From Bacteroidota bacterium (GTDB lineage: Bacteria > Bacteroidota > Bacteroidia > B-17B0 > Aurantibacillaceae), in the NCBI GenBank assembly GCA_018267655.1, contig JAFDYB010000042.1:1-64000 (forward strand): a DNA stretch of 64,000 nucleotides, read 5' to 3'. Position 1 is the first letter of the stretch. Every line of letters begins with the position of its first letter. Shown here one piece after another: positions 7,182-15,894 of the stretch. A program made the position numbers and the translations under genes. The notes beneath the pieces are model-generated. The model did not search any database and was not told where the DNA came from. It saw only the letters and a list, made by a program, of their open reading frames with translations.

Positions 7182-8181
7182 TAATCATTTAATATCTGTA
7201 ATTCTCCCTGTTTACAATGGCGAAAAATATTTAAAAGAAGCCATCGATTCTATTTTATTTCAAACCCACAAAAATTTAGAACTTATAATTATTAACGATG
7301 GCTCAACAGATAGTACAAAAGAAATTATAGACCAATATTCGGATAAAAGAATTATTAGCATACATCAGAAAAATTCAGGACTAGCAGAAAGTTTAAACAA
7401 CGGATTAAAAATTGCTAAGGGCGAATACATTGCTCGCCAAGATGCAGATGATATATCTCTTCCAAGAAGACTGGAAAAGCAAATCCAATATTTAATTAAT
7501 CACCCAAAAGTTGTTTTATTAGGCACTAGAGCAAAAATTTTCACAAATACAAATGATAATTATGGAATCCATAACCATGCTACTAATCCTGCTCAACTTC
7601 ATTTTGATTTATTTTTTAATAACCCTTTTGTTCATAGCAGTGTAATGTTTCGAAAATTAGCAATAGATAAAGTTGGAATGTATAATGGAGATAGAAGTTT
7701 AATTGAAGATTATGAGTTGTGGTCGAGATTTGTGCAAATTGGGCAGGTTTCTAATCTGCCAGATATTTTAGTATTATATAGACATCATGATGCTGGTATT
7801 TCGAAAGAAAGCTCTAATTATTATAAAGAAAAACCTGTTATAAATCAGAATAAAATAAATTTTAACCGTTTTTTAAACCTTACAAATGATGAAATAGAAT
7901 ACTTTATATCTTCGGTTAATGGCGACTTTAATGGAATAAGCGATAAAAAACTAAATATAGAAAAATTAAACTTAGTAATAATTAAAATATCGAAAAAATT
8001 AAATACGATTTATCCTGAATATACAGATGAAATAGAAAAAAGAAAAAAGGAGTATTTGAAAATAATAAAATGGAGAGCGAACAAATTTCAACGATTGAAT
8101 ACAAAAAATCCATTAAAGTTATTTTTCCTAAAAGTATCCAGTAAATTACAACAGCTAATTTCAGAACCTATAAATGATTAA
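7174..8181 (+). CDS. Family 2 glycosyltransferase
   Basis: The 335-residue protein has a GT2 core over about 1-215: ISVILPVYNGEKYLKEAIDSILFQT, IIINDGSTDST, the DxD equivalent ARQDADD, and LIEDYELWSRFVQIG. The C-terminal 100 residues are lysine-rich and unassigned. ATG at 7174 overlaps the previous stop by eight bases and its own end overlaps the next gene by eight bases, so translation is likely coupled through the operon. It is close in plan to the GT2 half of the fusion at 10223 but not a duplicate. It is likely to add one sugar to the exported polysaccharide. Confidence 0.87.
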   Translation: MFDNHLISVILPVYNGEKYLKEAIDSILFQTHKNLELIIINDGSTDSTKEIIDQYSDKRIISIHQKNSGLAESLNNGLKIAKGEYIARQDADDISLPRRLEKQIQYLINHPKVVLLGTRAKIFTNTNDNYGIHNHATNPAQLHFDLFFNNPFVHSSVMFRKLAIDKVGMYNGDRSLIEDYELWSRFVQIGQVSNLPDILVLYRHHDAGISKESSNYYKEKPVINQNKINFNRFLNLTNDEIEYFISSVNGDFNGISDKKLNIEKLNLVIIKISKKLNTIYPEYTDEIEKRKKEYLKIIKWRANKFQRLNTKNPLKLFFLKVSSKLQQLISEPIND

Positions 8182-9361
8182 AAAACTTAAAATAACTCAT
8201 TGCGTTGAAGCGTACTACCCTTCTGTTGGAGGAATGCAAGAGGTTGTTAAACAACTAAGTGAGCGGTTAGTAACCCTAGGACATGATGTTACGGTAATTA
8301 CTCGATTTAATCCTGAAAGAAATTTTACAGAGTTAAACGGTGTAAAAATTATTGCTTTCAATATTATTGGGAACCCTATTGTTCCAAAAAGTGAAGAGGA
8401 TCATAATTATGTAAATTTTTTACTTACTCTTAATACCGATATAATTACCTTTTTTGCAGCCCAACAATGGGCTACAAATTTAGCATTGCCAATTTTAAAA
8501 AAAATAAACGCTAAAAAGGTATCTGTTCCAACGGGGTATTCAGGATTATATTGGAATGAATTTAAAACCTATTATGAAGACATGAAAACATACATTCATG
8601 ATTACGACATGAATGTATATTTAAGCGATGATTACAGAGATATAAATTTTGCAAGGCAAAATGGAGTAAGCAAAACAATTTTAATACCTAACGGTGCCGC
8701 TGAAGATGAATTTTTAAAAAGTACTGAAATTGATATCCGAAAATCTTTAAATCTAAAAAAAGATACTTTTTTATTATTGCATGTTGGTAGTTTTTCTGGA
8801 TGGAAAGGACACGACGAATTGCTTGAGATGTATGCCAATTCTAAAATTAAAAACTCTGCGCTACTGATGATTGGGAACAATTATGAATATTTTTTTAAAA
8901 ATTTTAAACGTCACCGTAAGAGATTGTGGAATCTAATTAAAATAAAATTTTCGTTTGGAAAAAAAGTTGTGTTTAATTTTTTTCCAAGAGATTTTACGGT
9001 AGCGGCCTATAAACAATCAAATTTATTTGTTTTTCCTTCTAACATCGAATGTTCGCCCATTGTTTTATTTGAATGTGCTGCTGCAAAATTACCTTTTCTT
9101 TCTTCTGATTGCGGTAACTCTGTTGAAATAGCTGCATGGACACGAGGAGGAGAAATAATGCCAACCCAAATTGGCAGCGATGGTTTTTCTCATGTAGACA
9201 TAGCTAAAGGAATTATTTTAATGGAAGATATGTATCGTAATAAAGAAAAACGATTAAAAATGGGCGAAACAGCATTTGAAATATGGAAAAACAAGTACAG
9301 TTGGGAAGTAATAACACAAAACTACGAACAGGTGTATTATTCTTTAATAAATAAAACTTGA
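8174..9361 (+). CDS. Family 4 glycosyltransferase
   Basis: This 395-residue protein has the GT-B fold of family 4. The N-terminal acceptor domain begins KITHCVEAYYPSVGGMQEVVKQLSERL with the glycine-rich loop; the donor domain includes HVGSFSGWKGHDELL and the retaining-enzyme motif SNIECSPIVLFECAAAKLPFL (E-x7-E pattern). ATG at 8174 overlaps the previous gene by eight bases. The stop TGA at 9359-9361 shares bases with the TTG start of the next gene. The sugar donor is not predictable. Confidence 0.87.
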   Translation: MIKKLKITHCVEAYYPSVGGMQEVVKQLSERLVTLGHDVTVITRFNPERNFTELNGVKIIAFNIIGNPIVPKSEEDHNYVNFLLTLNTDIITFFAAQQWATNLALPILKKINAKKVSVPTGYSGLYWNEFKTYYEDMKTYIHDYDMNVYLSDDYRDINFARQNGVSKTILIPNGAAEDEFLKSTEIDIRKSLNLKKDTFLLLHVGSFSGWKGHDELLEMYANSKIKNSALLMIGNNYEYFFKNFKRHRKRLWNLIKIKFSFGKKVVFNFFPRDFTVAAYKQSNLFVFPSNIECSPIVLFECAAAKLPFLSSDCGNSVEIAAWTRGGEIMPTQIGSDGFSHVDIAKGIILMEDMYRNKEKRLKMGETAFEIWKNKYSWEVITQNYEQVYYSLINKT

Positions 9362-10230
9362 TCATCACAAAACTCATAGGCGGTTTAGGAAACCAAATGT
9401 TTCAGTATGCGGCAGGCAAATCGCTTGCCCAATGCCATAATACCGACTTGAAAATTGATCTTTCTTTTTTAAACACAAACCCTAACGGCGCTTATACTAA
9501 ACGTAATTTTGAACTCTCTGCTTTTAAGTTTGATACTGAGATTGCAAGCGAAAGTGAAATTCAAAAATTTAATGCTAAAAAAACTTTTTTTAAAAAACTA
9601 AGTCAACCTTTTTTTAAACAAACTAGCTATCATATTGCTAATGAAAAAAGTATGAATTTTGATTCTAATTTTTTTTCACTACCCAACAATACCTTACTCA
9701 ATGGCTTTTGGCAAAGTGAAAAATATTTTGAGAAAATAAAAACCACCATTCAAAACGATTTTCAAATAAAAAGCAATTTGCTTAGCGGAATTGAAAATTA
9801 TAAAACGCAAATAATTAATACAAACTCTTTATCGCTCCACGTTAGGCGAGGCGATTATGTTGCGCTCCAGAGTGCAAACGACTTCCATGGACTTTGTTCC
9901 GAAATGTATTACAACAACGCTGTTACCCTTATAAAAAACAAACACGCTATCAACACTATTTTTGTTTTTTCTGATGATATACAGTGGTGTACCAATAATT
10001 TAAAATTTGATACAACTACAATTTTTGTTGAAACCAACTCGCATTTTTGCGATTTGCATTTAATGTCCTTATGTAAGCACAATATTATTGCCAATAGCAG
10101 CTTTAGTTGGTGGGCAGCTTGGTTAAACAAAAACGAAGCTAAAACAGTTATTGCACCAAAACATTGGTTCCATAAAAATAAACCACAACCCATTAGTTTA
10201 ATTCCAAAAAATTGGCTTCAAATTGAATAA
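9358..10230 (+). CDS. Family 11 glycosyltransferase (alpha-1,2-fucosyltransferase-like)
   Basis: The 290-residue protein belongs to GT11, whose characterised members transfer L-fucose from GDP-fucose in alpha-1,2 linkage. Diagnostic segments are IITKLIGGLGNQMFQYAAGKSLA at the N terminus, HVRRGDY at about 161-167 (the GDP-binding arginine motif), HLMSLCKHNIIANSSFSWWAAWL and the C-terminal IAPKHWF. The conserved core starts at the second residue, so TTG at 9358 must be the start; it overlaps the preceding stop codon (TTGA). The presence of GT11 suggests fucose or a similar deoxysugar in the polysaccharide. No GDP-fucose synthesis genes are in the window. Confidence 0.9.
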   Translation: MIITKLIGGLGNQMFQYAAGKSLAQCHNTDLKIDLSFLNTNPNGAYTKRNFELSAFKFDTEIASESEIQKFNAKKTFFKKLSQPFFKQTSYHIANEKSMNFDSNFFSLPNNTLLNGFWQSEKYFEKIKTTIQNDFQIKSNLLSGIENYKTQIINTNSLSLHVRRGDYVALQSANDFHGLCSEMYYNNAVTLIKNKHAINTIFVFSDDIQWCTNNLKFDTTTIFVETNSHFCDLHLMSLCKHNIIANSSFSWWAAWLNKNEAKTVIAPKHWFHKNKPQPISLIPKNWLQIE

Positions 10231-12196
10231 CCAAAAACATAACCCGCTTATTTCGGTACTGATGCCTGCTTATAACTCTGAGTTGTATATTGCAGAAGCC
10301 ATTCAAAGTGTGCTAAATCAAACCTATGTAAATTTTGAGTTTATAATTATTAACGATGGTTCAACGGATAATACAGCTAACATTATCAAATCATTTAACG
10401 ATAGCCGAATTAAATACATTGAAAATGAAAAAAATTTAGGCCTAATAAAAACTTTAAATAAAGCAATTGATTTCTGCAAAGGAGAATACATTGCGCGTTT
10501 TGATGCCGATGACGTGTGTTTTTCTGAAAGGCTATTCATTCAATTAAATTACTTACTTGAAAATAAAAATTATACTCTGGTAGCAAGCCCTGTTGAAATT
10601 GTATTGTCAGATGGGAGTTCTCATGGCTATTGGAATTTAGATATTTTAATGAATACTCCTGCTAAAATAGCCAATACAATGCCTTACGAAAATTGTATAT
10701 CGCATCCAAGCATAATGATTAAAGCTGAGATTTTAAAAAAGTACAAATACAACTCGTCTCAAAAAGGCAGTGAAGATTGGGATTTATGGCTTCGGTTATT
10801 ACGCGATAAATTTATTATAGCAAAAACTCCACAGCAATTACTGAAGTATCGCATACATCAAAATTCAGTTACTATTGTGCATAATAAAAAGCAATCTCCC
10901 CAAATCAAATCTGCACTTGTAAAAATTAAATTTTTTATGCACTCTGTTTTAACTTTAAAAGTAAATGCACTTGTATTAAAATCATTGTATAGCATCGCAA
11001 TTGATCTTGGTTATTGGGCTAAGCTTAATTTAAAAAATAAATTTTTACCTAATCTTAAACGATTATTTACAATTAATTATTTCACTGCTGCAAAGCAATA
11101 TAAGGCATTATTTCAAGCGCTAAAGACTACCAATTTTGATTTAATATCTTTTTTTGCATGGTCAAAAATTGGTGGTGCTGAAAAAGTACATTCTCATATT
11201 TGCAATGTATTGCAAAATAAAAAGCAACTTGTTATTTTAACATCAATAAATTCTCAACAAAGTTTTAATAATTTTTTTAATCCAAACGTTAACGTAAATC
11301 ATTTTGCAGCGTGCTTGTATCACCCATTTTTTTCAATTAAATCGCACCGGCTGTTACTAAATTATATTACGGCCAATAAGCCTACTTTATTTGGCTCAAA
11401 TAGTCAATATTACTACTCTATTTTAAATAGTGTGCCACACAACATTAAGTGTGTTGATTTAACACATGATTTTATTGAATCAACTAAAAACAATACAAAT
11501 TTAAATGCGTATTTGCGTTTAAACGCCCGTGTTTTCATAAGTAATAAAGCATTAAATTCAACGACTGCATTTTATTTAAAAAACTACATTTCAAATAACT
11601 ATAATAATCGCTTAAAATTAATATATAATGCTATTTCACCTCAAACTATAAATACGAAACAATTTGATGGAATAATGCAAATTACTTTTGTTGGGCGCGA
11701 TTCTCCTGAAAAGCAAATCAATTTTCTTATAAAAATTGCAAATGAGTTAGCACATTTAAAATTGCCATTTGTATTTAATTTAGTTGGAGATATAAAAAAG
11801 CGAAGCGAAGGTAACTCAAACAATATTACGTATTATGGCGAAATTCGCAACAGTTTGCAATTAAATGATATTTACAATAAATCTCATTTTATAATTATTA
11901 CTTCAAATTCAGAAGGCTTTCCATTATCGTTAGCTGAGGGAATGAGCTTTGGTTGTATTCCTATTTCCACACCGGTTGGCGATATTCCTTTTCATATTCA
12001 AAACAAACAAAATGGTTATTTATGCACTAATTTTGATGAGCGTTGCATCAACGAAATAGTTTTAATTTTTACGGAAATTTATGAAAGTAATAAAAGCGAG
12101 CTGTCAAAAATTTCAAAAAATACACTTGAATACAGCAGGGTCAATTTTTCAGAAGAAAATTTTAAAAAAGCTTACAGCCAGCTATTGCAAATCTAA
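10223..12196 (+). CDS. Bifunctional GT2-GT4 glycosyltransferase fusion
   Basis: At 657 residues this is about twice the size of a single glycosyltransferase. Residues 1 to about 215 are a GT2 domain (LISVLMPAYNSELYIAEAIQS, IIINDGSTDNT, ARFDADD, SEDWDLWLRLL). After a linker near 220-300, residues from about 310 form a GT4 domain (FAWSKIGGAEKVHSHI, FVGRDSPEKQINFL, ITSNSEGFPLSLAEGMSFGCIPISTPVGD). The start is TTG at 10223, overlapping the GT11 stop by eight bases. The next in-frame Met is inside the GT2 core. It is the last gene of the operon. Inference: two consecutive sugar additions by one polypeptide. Confidence 0.87.
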   Translation: MNNQKHNPLISVLMPAYNSELYIAEAIQSVLNQTYVNFEFIIINDGSTDNTANIIKSFNDSRIKYIENEKNLGLIKTLNKAIDFCKGEYIARFDADDVCFSERLFIQLNYLLENKNYTLVASPVEIVLSDGSSHGYWNLDILMNTPAKIANTMPYENCISHPSIMIKAEILKKYKYNSSQKGSEDWDLWLRLLRDKFIIAKTPQQLLKYRIHQNSVTIVHNKKQSPQIKSALVKIKFFMHSVLTLKVNALVLKSLYSIAIDLGYWAKLNLKNKFLPNLKRLFTINYFTAAKQYKALFQALKTTNFDLISFFAWSKIGGAEKVHSHICNVLQNKKQLVILTSINSQQSFNNFFNPNVNVNHFAACLYHPFFSIKSHRLLLNYITANKPTLFGSNSQYYYSILNSVPHNIKCVDLTHDFIESTKNNTNLNAYLRLNARVFISNKALNSTTAFYLKNYISNNYNNRLKLIYNAISPQTINTKQFDGIMQITFVGRDSPEKQINFLIKIANELAHLKLPFVFNLVGDIKKRSEGNSNNITYYGEIRNSLQLNDIYNKSHFIIITSNSEGFPLSLAEGMSFGCIPISTPVGDIPFHIQNKQNGYLCTNFDERCINEIVLIFTEIYESNKSELSKISKNTLEYSRVNFSEENFKKAYSQLLQI

Positions 12197-12442: not shown

Positions 12443-13678
12443 ATGAAAAAATTTACTTTAATTTTATTATGTGCTATTAGCACACAGTTGTTTTCTCAAA
12501 AAAAAATATTATTTGATTGCCGCAAAGCAGAAACTGCAGGTAATGCCGATTGGGTAGTAGATGCTGATATTGATAATTTATTTTATAACACTTCCGGAGG
12601 TATAACTACCTCCGGTAATAAATCAAATGCTCAGCAAGTTCCAACTCCTGCACAGTCGGCCATTAATGCTTCTACTCCTGAAACGTATTGGACAGGAGGA
12701 CTTTCTGCATGGGGAGTTGATATGGCAAAACAAGGCTTTAGCATTGAAAGTATGCCCTATAACGCCTCAATAACTTACGGCGATTTAAGTAACCCACTTG
12801 ATTTATCAAACTATAAAGTATATATTGTAGATGAGCCTAATATAAAATACAACGATACCGAAAAGGCGGCAATAATTAATTTTGTAAAAAATGGTGGTGG
12901 TTTATTTATGATTTCTGATCATAATCTTTCTGACAGAAACAACGATGGTTGGGATTCACCGCACATTTGGAATGACTTAATGCAAACAAACACTGTTCAA
13001 ATAAATCCTTTTGGCATTACCTTCGATTATGTAAATATTTCACCGGTTTCAAACAATGTGGTTACAACACCCTCTGACAGTTTAACGCACGGACCTGGCG
13101 GAACTGTTGCTCAAGTCAAATGGAGTAACGGTACAACAATGACTTTAAATAATGCAAACAACTCAACCGTTGCAGGCGATGTGTATGTAAATGCTCCGGC
13201 TTCGGGCAGTTTAAATGCTTTGGTGGCACATGCTTATTATTTTAATGGCAGAGTTGCTGCTATGGGCGATAGCTCTCCGTCTGATGACGGTACAGGAAAT
13301 CCTTCGTGTACTTTGTACAATGGGTATTTTACAGATGCTGCCGGGAATCATCAAAAATTTTTTATTAATACTACCATTTGGCTTGCGGGCGGTAATGCTT
13401 TAGTTACAAGTATTGAAGAAAAAAATCCATTTAACTTACCGCAATTGAATGCCTATCCAAACCCCACAAAAGATATGCTTATAATTGGAAGTCAAAATAA
13501 CAACCAAGTTTACAGTATTGAACTAATTGATATTACCGGAAAACAATTAAATATTCAACCAGAAAAAGGACTAAACAATGAATATAAAATTAATTTAAGT
13601 AATTTTAATTCGGGTATTTATTATTGTAAAGTAAAATCAGAGTTTCAAACTCAAACGGTTAAAGTAATTAAACAGTGA
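12443..13678 (+). CDS. Secreted protein with T9SS sorting domain, unknown function
   Basis: The 411-residue product has a signal peptide (MKKFTLILLCAISTQLFSQ) and a type A T9SS C-terminal domain from about 335 (LNAYPNPTKDMLII ... NSGIYYCKVKSEFQTQTVKVIKQ). The middle part, about 20-320, contains YKVYIVDEPN and then FVKNGGGLFMISDHN, reminiscent of a glutamine-amidotransferase-like or DUF4350-like fold, then SDRNNDGWDSPHIWNDLM. I see no certain catalytic triad. Its stop TGA shares a base with the next gene's ATG (TGATG), so the two are translationally coupled and likely act together outside the cell or on its surface. Export and sorting are well supported; the activity is unknown. Confidence 0.8.
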   Translation: MKKFTLILLCAISTQLFSQKKILFDCRKAETAGNADWVVDADIDNLFYNTSGGITTSGNKSNAQQVPTPAQSAINASTPETYWTGGLSAWGVDMAKQGFSIESMPYNASITYGDLSNPLDLSNYKVYIVDEPNIKYNDTEKAAIINFVKNGGGLFMISDHNLSDRNNDGWDSPHIWNDLMQTNTVQINPFGITFDYVNISPVSNNVVTTPSDSLTHGPGGTVAQVKWSNGTTMTLNNANNSTVAGDVYVNAPASGSLNALVAHAYYFNGRVAAMGDSSPSDDGTGNPSCTLYNGYFTDAAGNHQKFFINTTIWLAGGNALVTSIEEKNPFNLPQLNAYPNPTKDMLIIGSQNNNQVYSIELIDITGKQLNIQPEKGLNNEYKINLSNFNSGIYYCKVKSEFQTQTVKVIKQ

Positions 13679-15072
13679 TGATTATTTTTTTTAAAAAGAA
13701 ATTGTATCTATCAATAATCACTGGATTATTTACAACCTTATTTTATAGTCAAAACTCTAAAATCACATGCTATTTTAATCACCCGGTAAACACAAGTTTA
13801 TCAACAGGTGTAAATGCAACCTATTTAAATGCAAGTATTTTAGATACCGCTGCCGCTTTTATTAATCGTGCACAAAATAGTATTGATTTTTGTATTTACG
13901 ATTTTTTATCTACCGGAACTGGTATTATTACTACTGCCATAAACAATGCGTATGCACGAGGCGTTAAAATTCGTTGGATTTACAATGGGTCATCTTCAAA
14001 CAGCGGCTTAAGCACGCTAAACACAGGAATTACTACATTAGGCAGCCCAACTACTTCTGCTTATGGTATTTGCCATAATAAATTTATGATAATTGATGCT
14101 GCATCAACCAACTCAAACAATGCTTTTGTTTGGACGGGTTCGTGCAATTTTACAGCACAACAAAATGCAAGTGATTACAATAACGTAATTATTTTTCAAA
14201 GTCAATCAATGGCGCAAGTTTACACCGGTGAGTTTAATAAAATGTGGGGTAGTACTACTACAACACCTAATTTATCAAGTTCTACATTTGGCCCATACAA
14301 AACACCCACGGCAGCAAACCAACACACATTTAATGTTGGAGGTAGTGTTGTTGATGTTTACTTTTCGCCAAAAGATGGGGCTGATGTGCAATTAAAAAAT
14401 GCAATTTCTACTGCAAACTCAGATTTGTTTTTTGGTATTTATACATTTACTGATAACTCCATTGCACTCGCAATTAGCACTGCAATTTCATCGGGAGTGT
14501 TAGCCAAAGGAATTGAAGACCAAAGCAGCAAAACCTATCAACCTTATGCCACCCTAACAAGTGTTATGAGTGCAAATAATTTTAGAATATACTCAGGCGG
14601 CTATTATTTATATCATAATAAAATAATGTTGATTGATGCAACAGCTCCAACGTCAGACCCTCTTGTGTGTACAGGTTCGTTCAATTGGACCAACTCTGCA
14701 GAAACTAAAAATGATGAAAATTTTGTAATAGTTCACGACGCATCTATTGCCAATCAATATTACCAATCGCTTTGTAATGATATAACAGTATTAGGTGGTT
14801 CTCCTTGTCCGCCTATTGCATCGGGTATAGTTGAAAATCAAAAAAACAGAGAGCTGCTAATATACCCAAACCCAACTAAAGATATAGTAAATATAAATTT
14901 AGCAGATATAAAAAGCGTAAAGCTATTCAATCAAACGGGCCAAGAATTTAAAATTGACTTTAACAGCGATTTAAAAATCATTGATTTAAAAAACATAACT
15001 AATGGCGTTTATTATCTTCAAATAAACTCTTCACAACAAACTATTAATAAAACAATAGTTGTTTTACATTAA
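13678..15072 (+). CDS. Secreted phospholipase D/nuclease-like protein with T9SS sorting domain
   Basis: The protein (464 residues from ATG at 13678; a GTG one codon earlier is the alternative) has a signal peptide ending near LFYSQ and two phospholipase D domains. Both HKD motifs are complete: HNKFMIID near 133 with the GSCNFT follow-up, and HNKIMLID near 313 with GSFNWT. Family members are Nuc-type endonucleases, phospholipases or transphosphatidylases. The C-terminal 75 residues (LLIYPNPTKDIVNINL ... GVYYLQINSSQQTINKTIVVLH) are a T9SS sorting domain, so it should be exported and surface-bound or released. It is coupled to the preceding gene by TGATG. Nuclease versus lipase cannot be decided here. 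Confidence 0.85.
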   Translation: MIIFFKKKLYLSIITGLFTTLFYSQNSKITCYFNHPVNTSLSTGVNATYLNASILDTAAAFINRAQNSIDFCIYDFLSTGTGIITTAINNAYARGVKIRWIYNGSSSNSGLSTLNTGITTLGSPTTSAYGICHNKFMIIDAASTNSNNAFVWTGSCNFTAQQNASDYNNVIIFQSQSMAQVYTGEFNKMWGSTTTTPNLSSSTFGPYKTPTAANQHTFNVGGSVVDVYFSPKDGADVQLKNAISTANSDLFFGIYTFTDNSIALAISTAISSGVLAKGIEDQSSKTYQPYATLTSVMSANNFRIYSGGYYLYHNKIMLIDATAPTSDPLVCTGSFNWTNSAETKNDENFVIVHDASIANQYYQSLCNDITVLGGSPCPPIASGIVENQKNRELLIYPNPTKDIVNINLADIKSVKLFNQTGQEFKIDFNSDLKIIDLKNITNGVYYLQINSSQQTINKTIVVLH

Positions 15073-15099: not shown

Positions 15100-15894
15100 A
15101 TGACATACTTTGAAGCACTTATTGTAGCCATAATAGAAGGCTTGACTGAATTTTTACCGGTATCATCAACGGGGCACATGATAATTACAACTGCACTGCT
15201 TGGCATAAAATCTACACCATTTGTTAAATTATTTACAGTAGCCATACAATTAGGCGCTATTTTAAGCGTAGTTGTTCTTTATTTTAAACATTTTTTTAAA
15301 AAGATTAATTTTTATATAAAATTAATTATTGCTTTTATTCCTGCCGCAGTTATTGGCGTGCTGTTTGGAGATATGATTGACAGGGCTTTAGAAAATCTGT
15401 TTGGCGTTGCAGTGGCATTATTTTTAGGTGGTATTGTTTTACTTGTTATTGATAATTTTTTTAAAAAACCTTTTATACATAATGAAGAAGAAATCAAAAA
15501 CATAACGGCATTAAAAATTGGAGTATTTCAGTGCTTAGCTTTATTTCCGGGAGTTAGCAGAAGCGCGAGTACTATCATCGGAGGAATGGCACAAAAACTT
15601 ACAAGAAAAGCTGCCGCAGAATTTTCCTTTTTTTTAGCTGTTCCAACCATGGCTGCAGCAACATTTAAAAAATGTTATGATTTTTATAAAGAAGGAATTT
15701 CAATTAACCAAAACGAAATAAAACTGCTATTATTTGGGAACTTAATCGCTTTTATAGTAGCCTTACTCGCTATTAAAACATTTATTGGAATACTAAACAA
15801 ATACGGCTTTAAATGGTTTGGAGTTTATAGGATAATTATAGGCGGCATTTTAATTGCACTCTATTTAATGAAAATTTCTATTGAAATAGTGTAG
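15100..15894 (+). CDS. uppP: Undecaprenyl-diphosphatase (bacitracin resistance family)
   Basis: UppP dephosphorylates undecaprenyl diphosphate to regenerate the lipid carrier for peptidoglycan and O-polysaccharide synthesis. The protein is a polytopic inner-membrane enzyme of about 264 residues. It carries the N-terminal [14 protein letters not shown] and the central [14 protein letters not shown], the two motifs that form the active site. I take ATG at 15100 as start because it gives the family N terminus [14 protein letters not shown]; a TTG two codons upstream is possible. It lies 27 bases after the PLD gene and may share its transcript. The link to the polysaccharide operon just upstream is functionally sensible. 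Confidence 0.95.

Follow-up and report, generated by a model that had tools for sequence, protein, structure and literature searches.

Two overlapping plus-strand genes in the 64,000-nucleotide stretch of DNA analysed here (the window) encode a pair of proteins bearing type A sorting domains of the T9SS. On balanced evidence we propose that they may form a surface unit that degrades nucleic acid outside the cell, with protein 2 cutting the substrate and protein 1 serving as a phosphoester- or nucleic-acid-directed partner. The pair recurs in a minority of relatives rather than forming a fixed unit, and literature searches brought up no title or opening abstract that describes either the pair or the protein 1 family.

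Gene organization and export

The gene encoding protein 1 (12443..13678, + strand) begins with ATG and specifies 411 residues, comprising a signal-peptide-like start, a predicted GIFT/GATase1-like domain at approximately residues 20-326 and a T9SS type A tail at 338-411. Protein 2 (13678..15072, + strand) is 464 residues long when read from the ATG at 13678, with a signal-peptide-like start, two PLDc_2 domains and a T9SS type A tail at residues 395-461; its mechanical ORF opens three bases further upstream, at GTG 13675. The stop codon of protein 1 overlaps the ATG of protein 2 in the sequence TGATG (13676..13680, + strand), which bears out the original prediction of a coupled pair sharing this motif. 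An overlap this short would keep the output of both genes matched. Both proteins have relatives in other genomes that align along almost all of the catalytic region with approximately 40-65% identity, which argues that both genes are more than chance. Within the same genome no paralogues of either catalytic region were found, as the other matches all include the sorting tail; one of these (G000:C86) aligns with residues 210-411.

The preceding gene ends at 12196, and three overlapping glycosyltransferase genes (GT1, GT11, and a GT2/GT1 fusion) occupy positions 8174-12196. An operon joining these genes to the pair is unsupported, given the 246 bp gap before protein 1 and their unrelated functions. 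Downstream, the ATG of uppP lies at 15100, 27 bp past protein 2, and a shared operon of protein 2 and uppP is possible; rlmD is found two places beyond protein 2. A role in anti-phage defence was also considered and rejected: a PADLOC search at E 0.1 gave nothing for protein 1 and, for protein 2, a match to DrmC (1e-9) over a PLD domain, and a Pfam scan of the three upstream and two downstream genes detected none that are defence-like.

Both proteins are predicted T9SS type A cargo. The sorting domain scores 52.2 bits in protein 1 (residues 338-409) and 41.8 bits in protein 2 (residues 395-461) against a cut-off of 27, TIGR04183 agrees with both calls, and the genome contains one above-cut-off match to the T9SS translocon protein SprA. 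The sorting domains claimed for both products are upheld. The signal peptides that were also claimed correspond to signal-peptide-like N-termini on both proteins, recognized only by eye. Of 66 protein 1 homologues, 45 have a match to the sorting tail, and several of the tail-less ones start like lipoproteins, again by eye.

Protein 2 as a putative surface nuclease

Protein 2 contains two HxKx4D motifs, HNKFMIID at residues 133-140 (14074..14097, + strand) and HNKIMLID at residues 313-320 (14614..14637, + strand), followed by GSCN at residue 154 and GSFN at residue 333, respectively. Two complete HKD motifs were originally predicted and are indeed present, each with its GSxN, placing the protein in the PLD superfamily; its PLDc_2 score in Pfam is 125.2 bits (cut-off 27). 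Nine solved sequences are matched at E 0.001, the closest being Salmonella Nuc (to domain 2), Zucchini/MitoPLD (to domain 1), and then NucT. All of those that cover a PLD domain are named endonuclease, nuclease NucT or mitochondrial cardiolipin hydrolase (the Zucchini/MitoPLD group), and the sole "Lipase" among them, 7pzj, matches the sorting tail only. Judged by these sequence relatives, which also favor the surface unit proposed above, protein 2 looks more like the nucleases of the PLD superfamily than its phospholipases, and we infer that it is probably a surface enzyme cutting DNA or RNA. It would be a phosphodiesterase of the Nuc/NucT kind with a single active site built from both HKD motifs; metal independence is a feature of the superfamily.

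The same superfamily includes phospholipases, and the pair might instead be directed at lipid or glycan, with protein 2 acting as a surface phospholipase and protein 1 as a sugar-binding GIFT domain. Sugar binding has been proposed for GIFT domains (Beatson and Ponting 2004, as relayed in PMC7226087), but the names of the solved relatives of the PLD domains and the restriction of the 7pzj match to the sorting tail make a lipid- or glycan-directed pair improbable. Because some relatives bear the name "cardiolipin hydrolase", a lipid activity of protein 2 is conceivable. The secreted nuclease or phospholipase of the original prediction is thereby narrowed, with the nuclease favored by the sequence relatives and the phospholipase disfavored.

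Relatives of protein 2 at E 1e-5, some of them partial, occur in 89 of 296 phylum genomes and 15 of 87 family genomes, the window's genome being counted in each. Both HxKx4D motifs are present in 20 of the 24 homologues available in full, a subset of all matches that includes the window protein. In L108, L115_09, L194, and L126 the Asp of the second motif is replaced by Asn; the first three of these homologues are the PLD members of three of the five intact pairs with protein 1 described below, and the first GSxN is altered in the PLD protein of L190; both observations count against a nucleic-acid-degrading surface unit. A structure model of protein 2 was built on 3 sequences with a mean pLDDT of 54.4, and for that reason was neither searched nor used.

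Predicted fold and invariant residues of protein 1

In profile searches the only feature of the window's protein 1 above cut-off is its sorting tail (Pfam, NCBIfam). ABC_transp_aux (19.3 bits against a gathering cut-off of 34.7) and GldG fall below, and no other Pfam family of the fold is listed for it. Its homologues also give DUF4350, IFT52_GIFT, and ThuA, and none of these three families or ABC_transp_aux exceeds its gathering cut-off in the window protein or the scanned homologues. A structure model built on 16 sequences (mean pLDDT 69.5, pTM 0.78, poor at model residues 15-68, where model numbering is the protein number minus 16) matches IFT52, Salmonella STM3548 and STM1381, an oligosaccharyltransferase subunit, S1P, and ThuA-like proteins, with a best Foldseek E of 4.7e-6. 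From these matches protein 1 is predicted to have a GIFT/GATase1-like fold, at middling model confidence. The core described originally as being of unclear fold therefore corresponds to a recognizable domain in the model. As to whether protein 1 might match a well-known enzyme, the fold is a known one, but we found no named family that includes the protein.

Wherever a letter is present in the alignment of 66 homologues, D36, D40, W83, S88, E102, D120, E131, H160, R165, D171, D276, S277, S278, D281, D282, and N309 are invariant. Cys is absent from the columns conserved at 95% in these homologues, indicating that protein 1 is not a glutaminase (class I glutamine amidotransferase). Several of the invariant positions follow strands of the model, with E131-P-N after strand 110-114, D159-H160 after strand 137-142, and D276-S-S after strand 253-259, and the strand-end edge is the usual pocket site in this class of fold. 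Invariant Asp, Glu, His, and Arg residues may line a pocket where the beta-sheet has its C-terminal edge, and this pocket might hydrolyse or bind either the products of protein 2 or nucleic acid itself; of the proposed mechanism, this is the part of which we are least sure. The invariant polar residues speak for the surface-unit reading, to which the mean pLDDT of the model and the mostly non-catalytic nature of GIFT domains with known roles are opposed. A catalytic protein 1, suggested by the invariant polar set and its position, is the weakest step of the argument.

Recurrence of the pair

At E 1e-5, protein 1 was found in 19 of 87 genomes sampled from the family, 38 of 395 from the class, and 5 of 296 from the phylum; there is overlap between these samples, all of which contain the window's genome, and the search by order covered the same 87 genomes as that by family. 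Surroundings were read for 66 protein 1 genes, a set that leaves out those of G158 (missed by the ORF caller), G447 (broken), and G595 (a fragment) and retains the incomplete L117 and the near-identical L040 and L041. Loci L036, L042, L045, and L047 were excluded because their contigs equal in length those of G057, G060, G062, and G061, respectively, and were taken to be duplicates of them. Tandem duplicates of protein 1 are seen in L111 and L112 (G061 and G062), and PLD genes stand in tandem in L238 (four genes; G539:C16) and L239 (three genes; G611:C33).

A PLD homologue lies immediately adjacent on the same strand in five of the 66 cases. The window's pair has protein 1 first and a 1-nt overlap (gap -1), and those of G060, G066, G429, and G570 have the PLD gene first, with gaps of 15, 15, 16, and 66 bp. 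A sixth locus, in G447 (L237, G447:C36), has a PLD gene followed after 3 nt by a broken protein 1 remnant, consisting of approximately the first 80 residues with an internal deletion and a frame shift, and an apparent sorting tail. The remaining 61 genes have no PLD gene immediately beside them, although 10 of the 66 are within 1 kb of a contig end, where an adjacent PLD gene may be missed. The two genes are thus not a fixed unit kept together in most relatives of protein 1, which counts against the surface-unit reading, and their pairing is better described as a recurrent partnership in a minority of relatives.

Given this sparse distribution, it is necessary to weigh whether the two genes are chance neighbors, that is, independent T9SS cargo genes each with its own job. 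Besides the 61 unpaired genes, the closest kin of the window's protein 1 (L099 and L100) lack an adjacent PLD gene, and in G049 the PLD gene sits beside rlmD while protein 1 is on a different contig. Against this, same-strand adjacency has come up repeatedly, in distinct clades and with either gene first. Both families are matched in 26 genomes, comprising 7 of the 87 family genomes and 19 of 34 others that were chosen for having protein 1; among the 26, the PLD matches of G717 and G724 are partial or weak and protein 1 is partial in G447 and G595. Adjacency occurs in six of the 26, one being the G447 remnant. On a rough estimate that assumes independent genomes and 3000 genes, random placement would yield at least four adjacencies with a probability of approximately 1e-10 to 3e-9 and at least three with approximately 1e-7 to 8e-7, in round terms about 1e-7 to 1e-9. 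The PLD family, found beside protein 1 in six loci, also exceeds any other clustered neighbor apart from shared synteny.

The five intact pairs fall within three starred clades of the protein 1 tree, and the starred branches force at least four changes of pair state on that tree and at least five on the PLD tree, where changes may be gains or losses. Both trees were built by a quick method, and shuffled labels cluster on them as much as the pair label does. The two gene orders cannot be derived from a single origin by losses alone. In G429 and G523, which belong to one genus, the protein 1 gene lies between the same flanking genes; only G429 has the PLD gene there, G523 has no PLD match, and the two protein 1 genes are not mutual nearest kin. 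Taken together, recurrence in separate clades and both orders is not easily explained by random placement, and we consider chance neighbors rather unlikely. The check for conserved pairing in relatives that was originally suggested accordingly gives a mixed result, the pairing being absent from most protein 1 loci and yet recurring in separate clades of both trees, while the coupled, T9SS-tagged pair with a nuclease-like two-HKD enzyme stands.

Association with nucleases and DUF5689 proteins

The company kept by protein 1 points to nucleic-acid digestion in several places. On a single contig of 5.5 kb (L046), protein 1 is accompanied by an S1/P1 nuclease (E 2.2e-54), a DUF5689 protein and, on the opposite strand, a PLD gene. 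An N-terminal module is present on 10 of the 66 protein 1 proteins; a search of 41 genomes, all from a single family, matched it 14 times, seven on Endonuclease_NS proteins, four on DUF5689 proteins, and one each on a DUF4998 protein, a protein 1, and a protein without a family over cut-off; no solved relative of the module was detected at E 0.01. A 1289-residue protein 1 homologue bears a Phosphoesterase domain. These three observations and the recurrent pair itself favor the surface unit. Weighing against it, L046 is the only protein 1 locus at which S1/P1, Endonuclease_NS, or DUF5689 genes were detected nearby (using one seed sequence each, at low sensitivity), the other protein 1 fusions are to structural repeats (PKD, Big_2, CARDB, SprB), and the module is not specific to nucleases, as it is also carried by DUF5689 and DUF4998 proteins. 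Since the two genes lie side by side in some other bacteria, protein 1 probably also helps digest extracellular DNA, and its recurrent company and fusions suggest a partner in such digestion.

Relatives of protein 2 keep company of their own. The two scanned for it, L128 and L138, have an N-terminal DUF5689 domain in Pfam, which was found in L128 after a weak BLAST match (E 0.006) of its N-terminus to the DUF5689 domain of L046. Neighbors of PLD relatives include a CarboxypepD_reg/TonB receptor (by Pfam in L128 and L138, by clustering in L130 and L131), an Endonuclease I protein, or S1/P1 genes. In L128, L130, and L138 a Lamin-tail protein (by Pfam in L128), the receptor, and a DUF5689-fused PLD protein (DUF5689 scanned in L128 and L138) stand in a row; L131 shows the same Lamin-tail/receptor/PLD row as far as its contig reaches, and in L130 an Endonuclease I T9SS protein comes next. 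This row is possibly an operon for DNA capture and digestion resembling transformation genes of Riemerella, in which transformation depends on a DUF5689 protein and on an outer-membrane protein of the carboxypeptidase-regulatory-like type (PMC8459023).

The pair could by extension belong to a DNA-uptake (competence) unit, with the PLD protein trimming captured surface DNA and protein 1 holding it for a DUF5689/receptor system. The DUF5689-fused PLD relatives beside the receptor, the Riemerella precedent, and two tandem DUF5689 genes in the window's own genome are in keeping with this idea. However, the window's pair does not adjoin DUF5689 or receptor genes, the PLD proteins paired with protein 1 fall in the stand-alone PLD clade rather than the DUF5689-fused one, and DUF5689 had no match in G429, which has a pair, or G447, which has the remnant. 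A competence unit is an alternative to keep in view, though an improbable one.

The tandem DUF5689 genes of the window's genome (L246, G000:C29:79000-97000) encode DUF5689/choice-of-anchor J lipoproteins (M949_1556 family, below cut-off) and follow an 846-residue secreted protein and a divergent endonuclease/exonuclease/phosphatase-like gene (by eye). Similar rows (L125, L247, L248) are present in G060, G066, and G570, with a PLD gene next in G060. DUF5689 was also matched in 2 of 14 control genomes.

Returning to the surface unit, a more specific and decidedly tentative version would make protein 1 the founder of a new secreted family of GIFT-fold phosphoesterases or nucleases, with its own Asp/His/Arg active site on a fold otherwise known from scaffolding and sugar binding. 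Together with Nuc-type PLD enzymes, this family would reduce DNA outside the cell to fragments small enough for import. In sediment Bacteroidota, genes for extracellular nucleases are reported to be prevalent, and extracellular DNA to be an important phosphorus source (PMC8289736). An unnamed secreted family that recurs beside nucleases of this kind offers a concrete candidate for a step missing from DNA digestion. If this proves true, the GIFT fold would gain a possible enzymatic branch, testable by simple assays.

Comparison with known systems

A comparison of protein 2 with Nuc (1byr) and NucT (6ehi) shows likeness in the sequence of the PLD domain and in HxKx4D with GSxN, and the stretch TGSFNWTNSAETKNDEN of protein 2 aligns with TGSFNFTKAAETKNSEN of Nuc. 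Unlike these nucleases, protein 2 has two PLD domains per chain and a T9SS tail, and its best score against the NucT equivalog, 65.3 bits, is far under the NCBIfam cut-off of 297. Zucchini/MitoPLD (4gen, 4gel, and others) matches the first PLD domain of protein 2, residues 60-196; it is itself eukaryotic and single-domain, and its likeness to protein 2 is one of sequence.

The predicted fold of protein 1 is that of the GIFT/GATase1-like domains of IFT52, S1P, the oligosaccharyltransferase subunit, ThuA-like proteins, and GldG. Its best VIA-align match is IFT52 (5fmr, Z 18.9 over 205 residues at 3.4 A), with S1P (8uw8) at Z 17.1 and ThuA-like 1t0b at Z 15.0. Identity to these structures is 12-17% (10% for 1t0b), and no Pfam model of the fold is above cut-off. 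Unlike its relatives of this fold, protein 1 is secreted and possesses its own invariant Asp/His/Arg set. The surface nucleases Endonuclease_NS, S1/P1, and Endonuclease I are linked to protein 1 or to PLD relatives through a common fusion module or neighborhood, an association only, and their catalytic domains differ from those of the pair.
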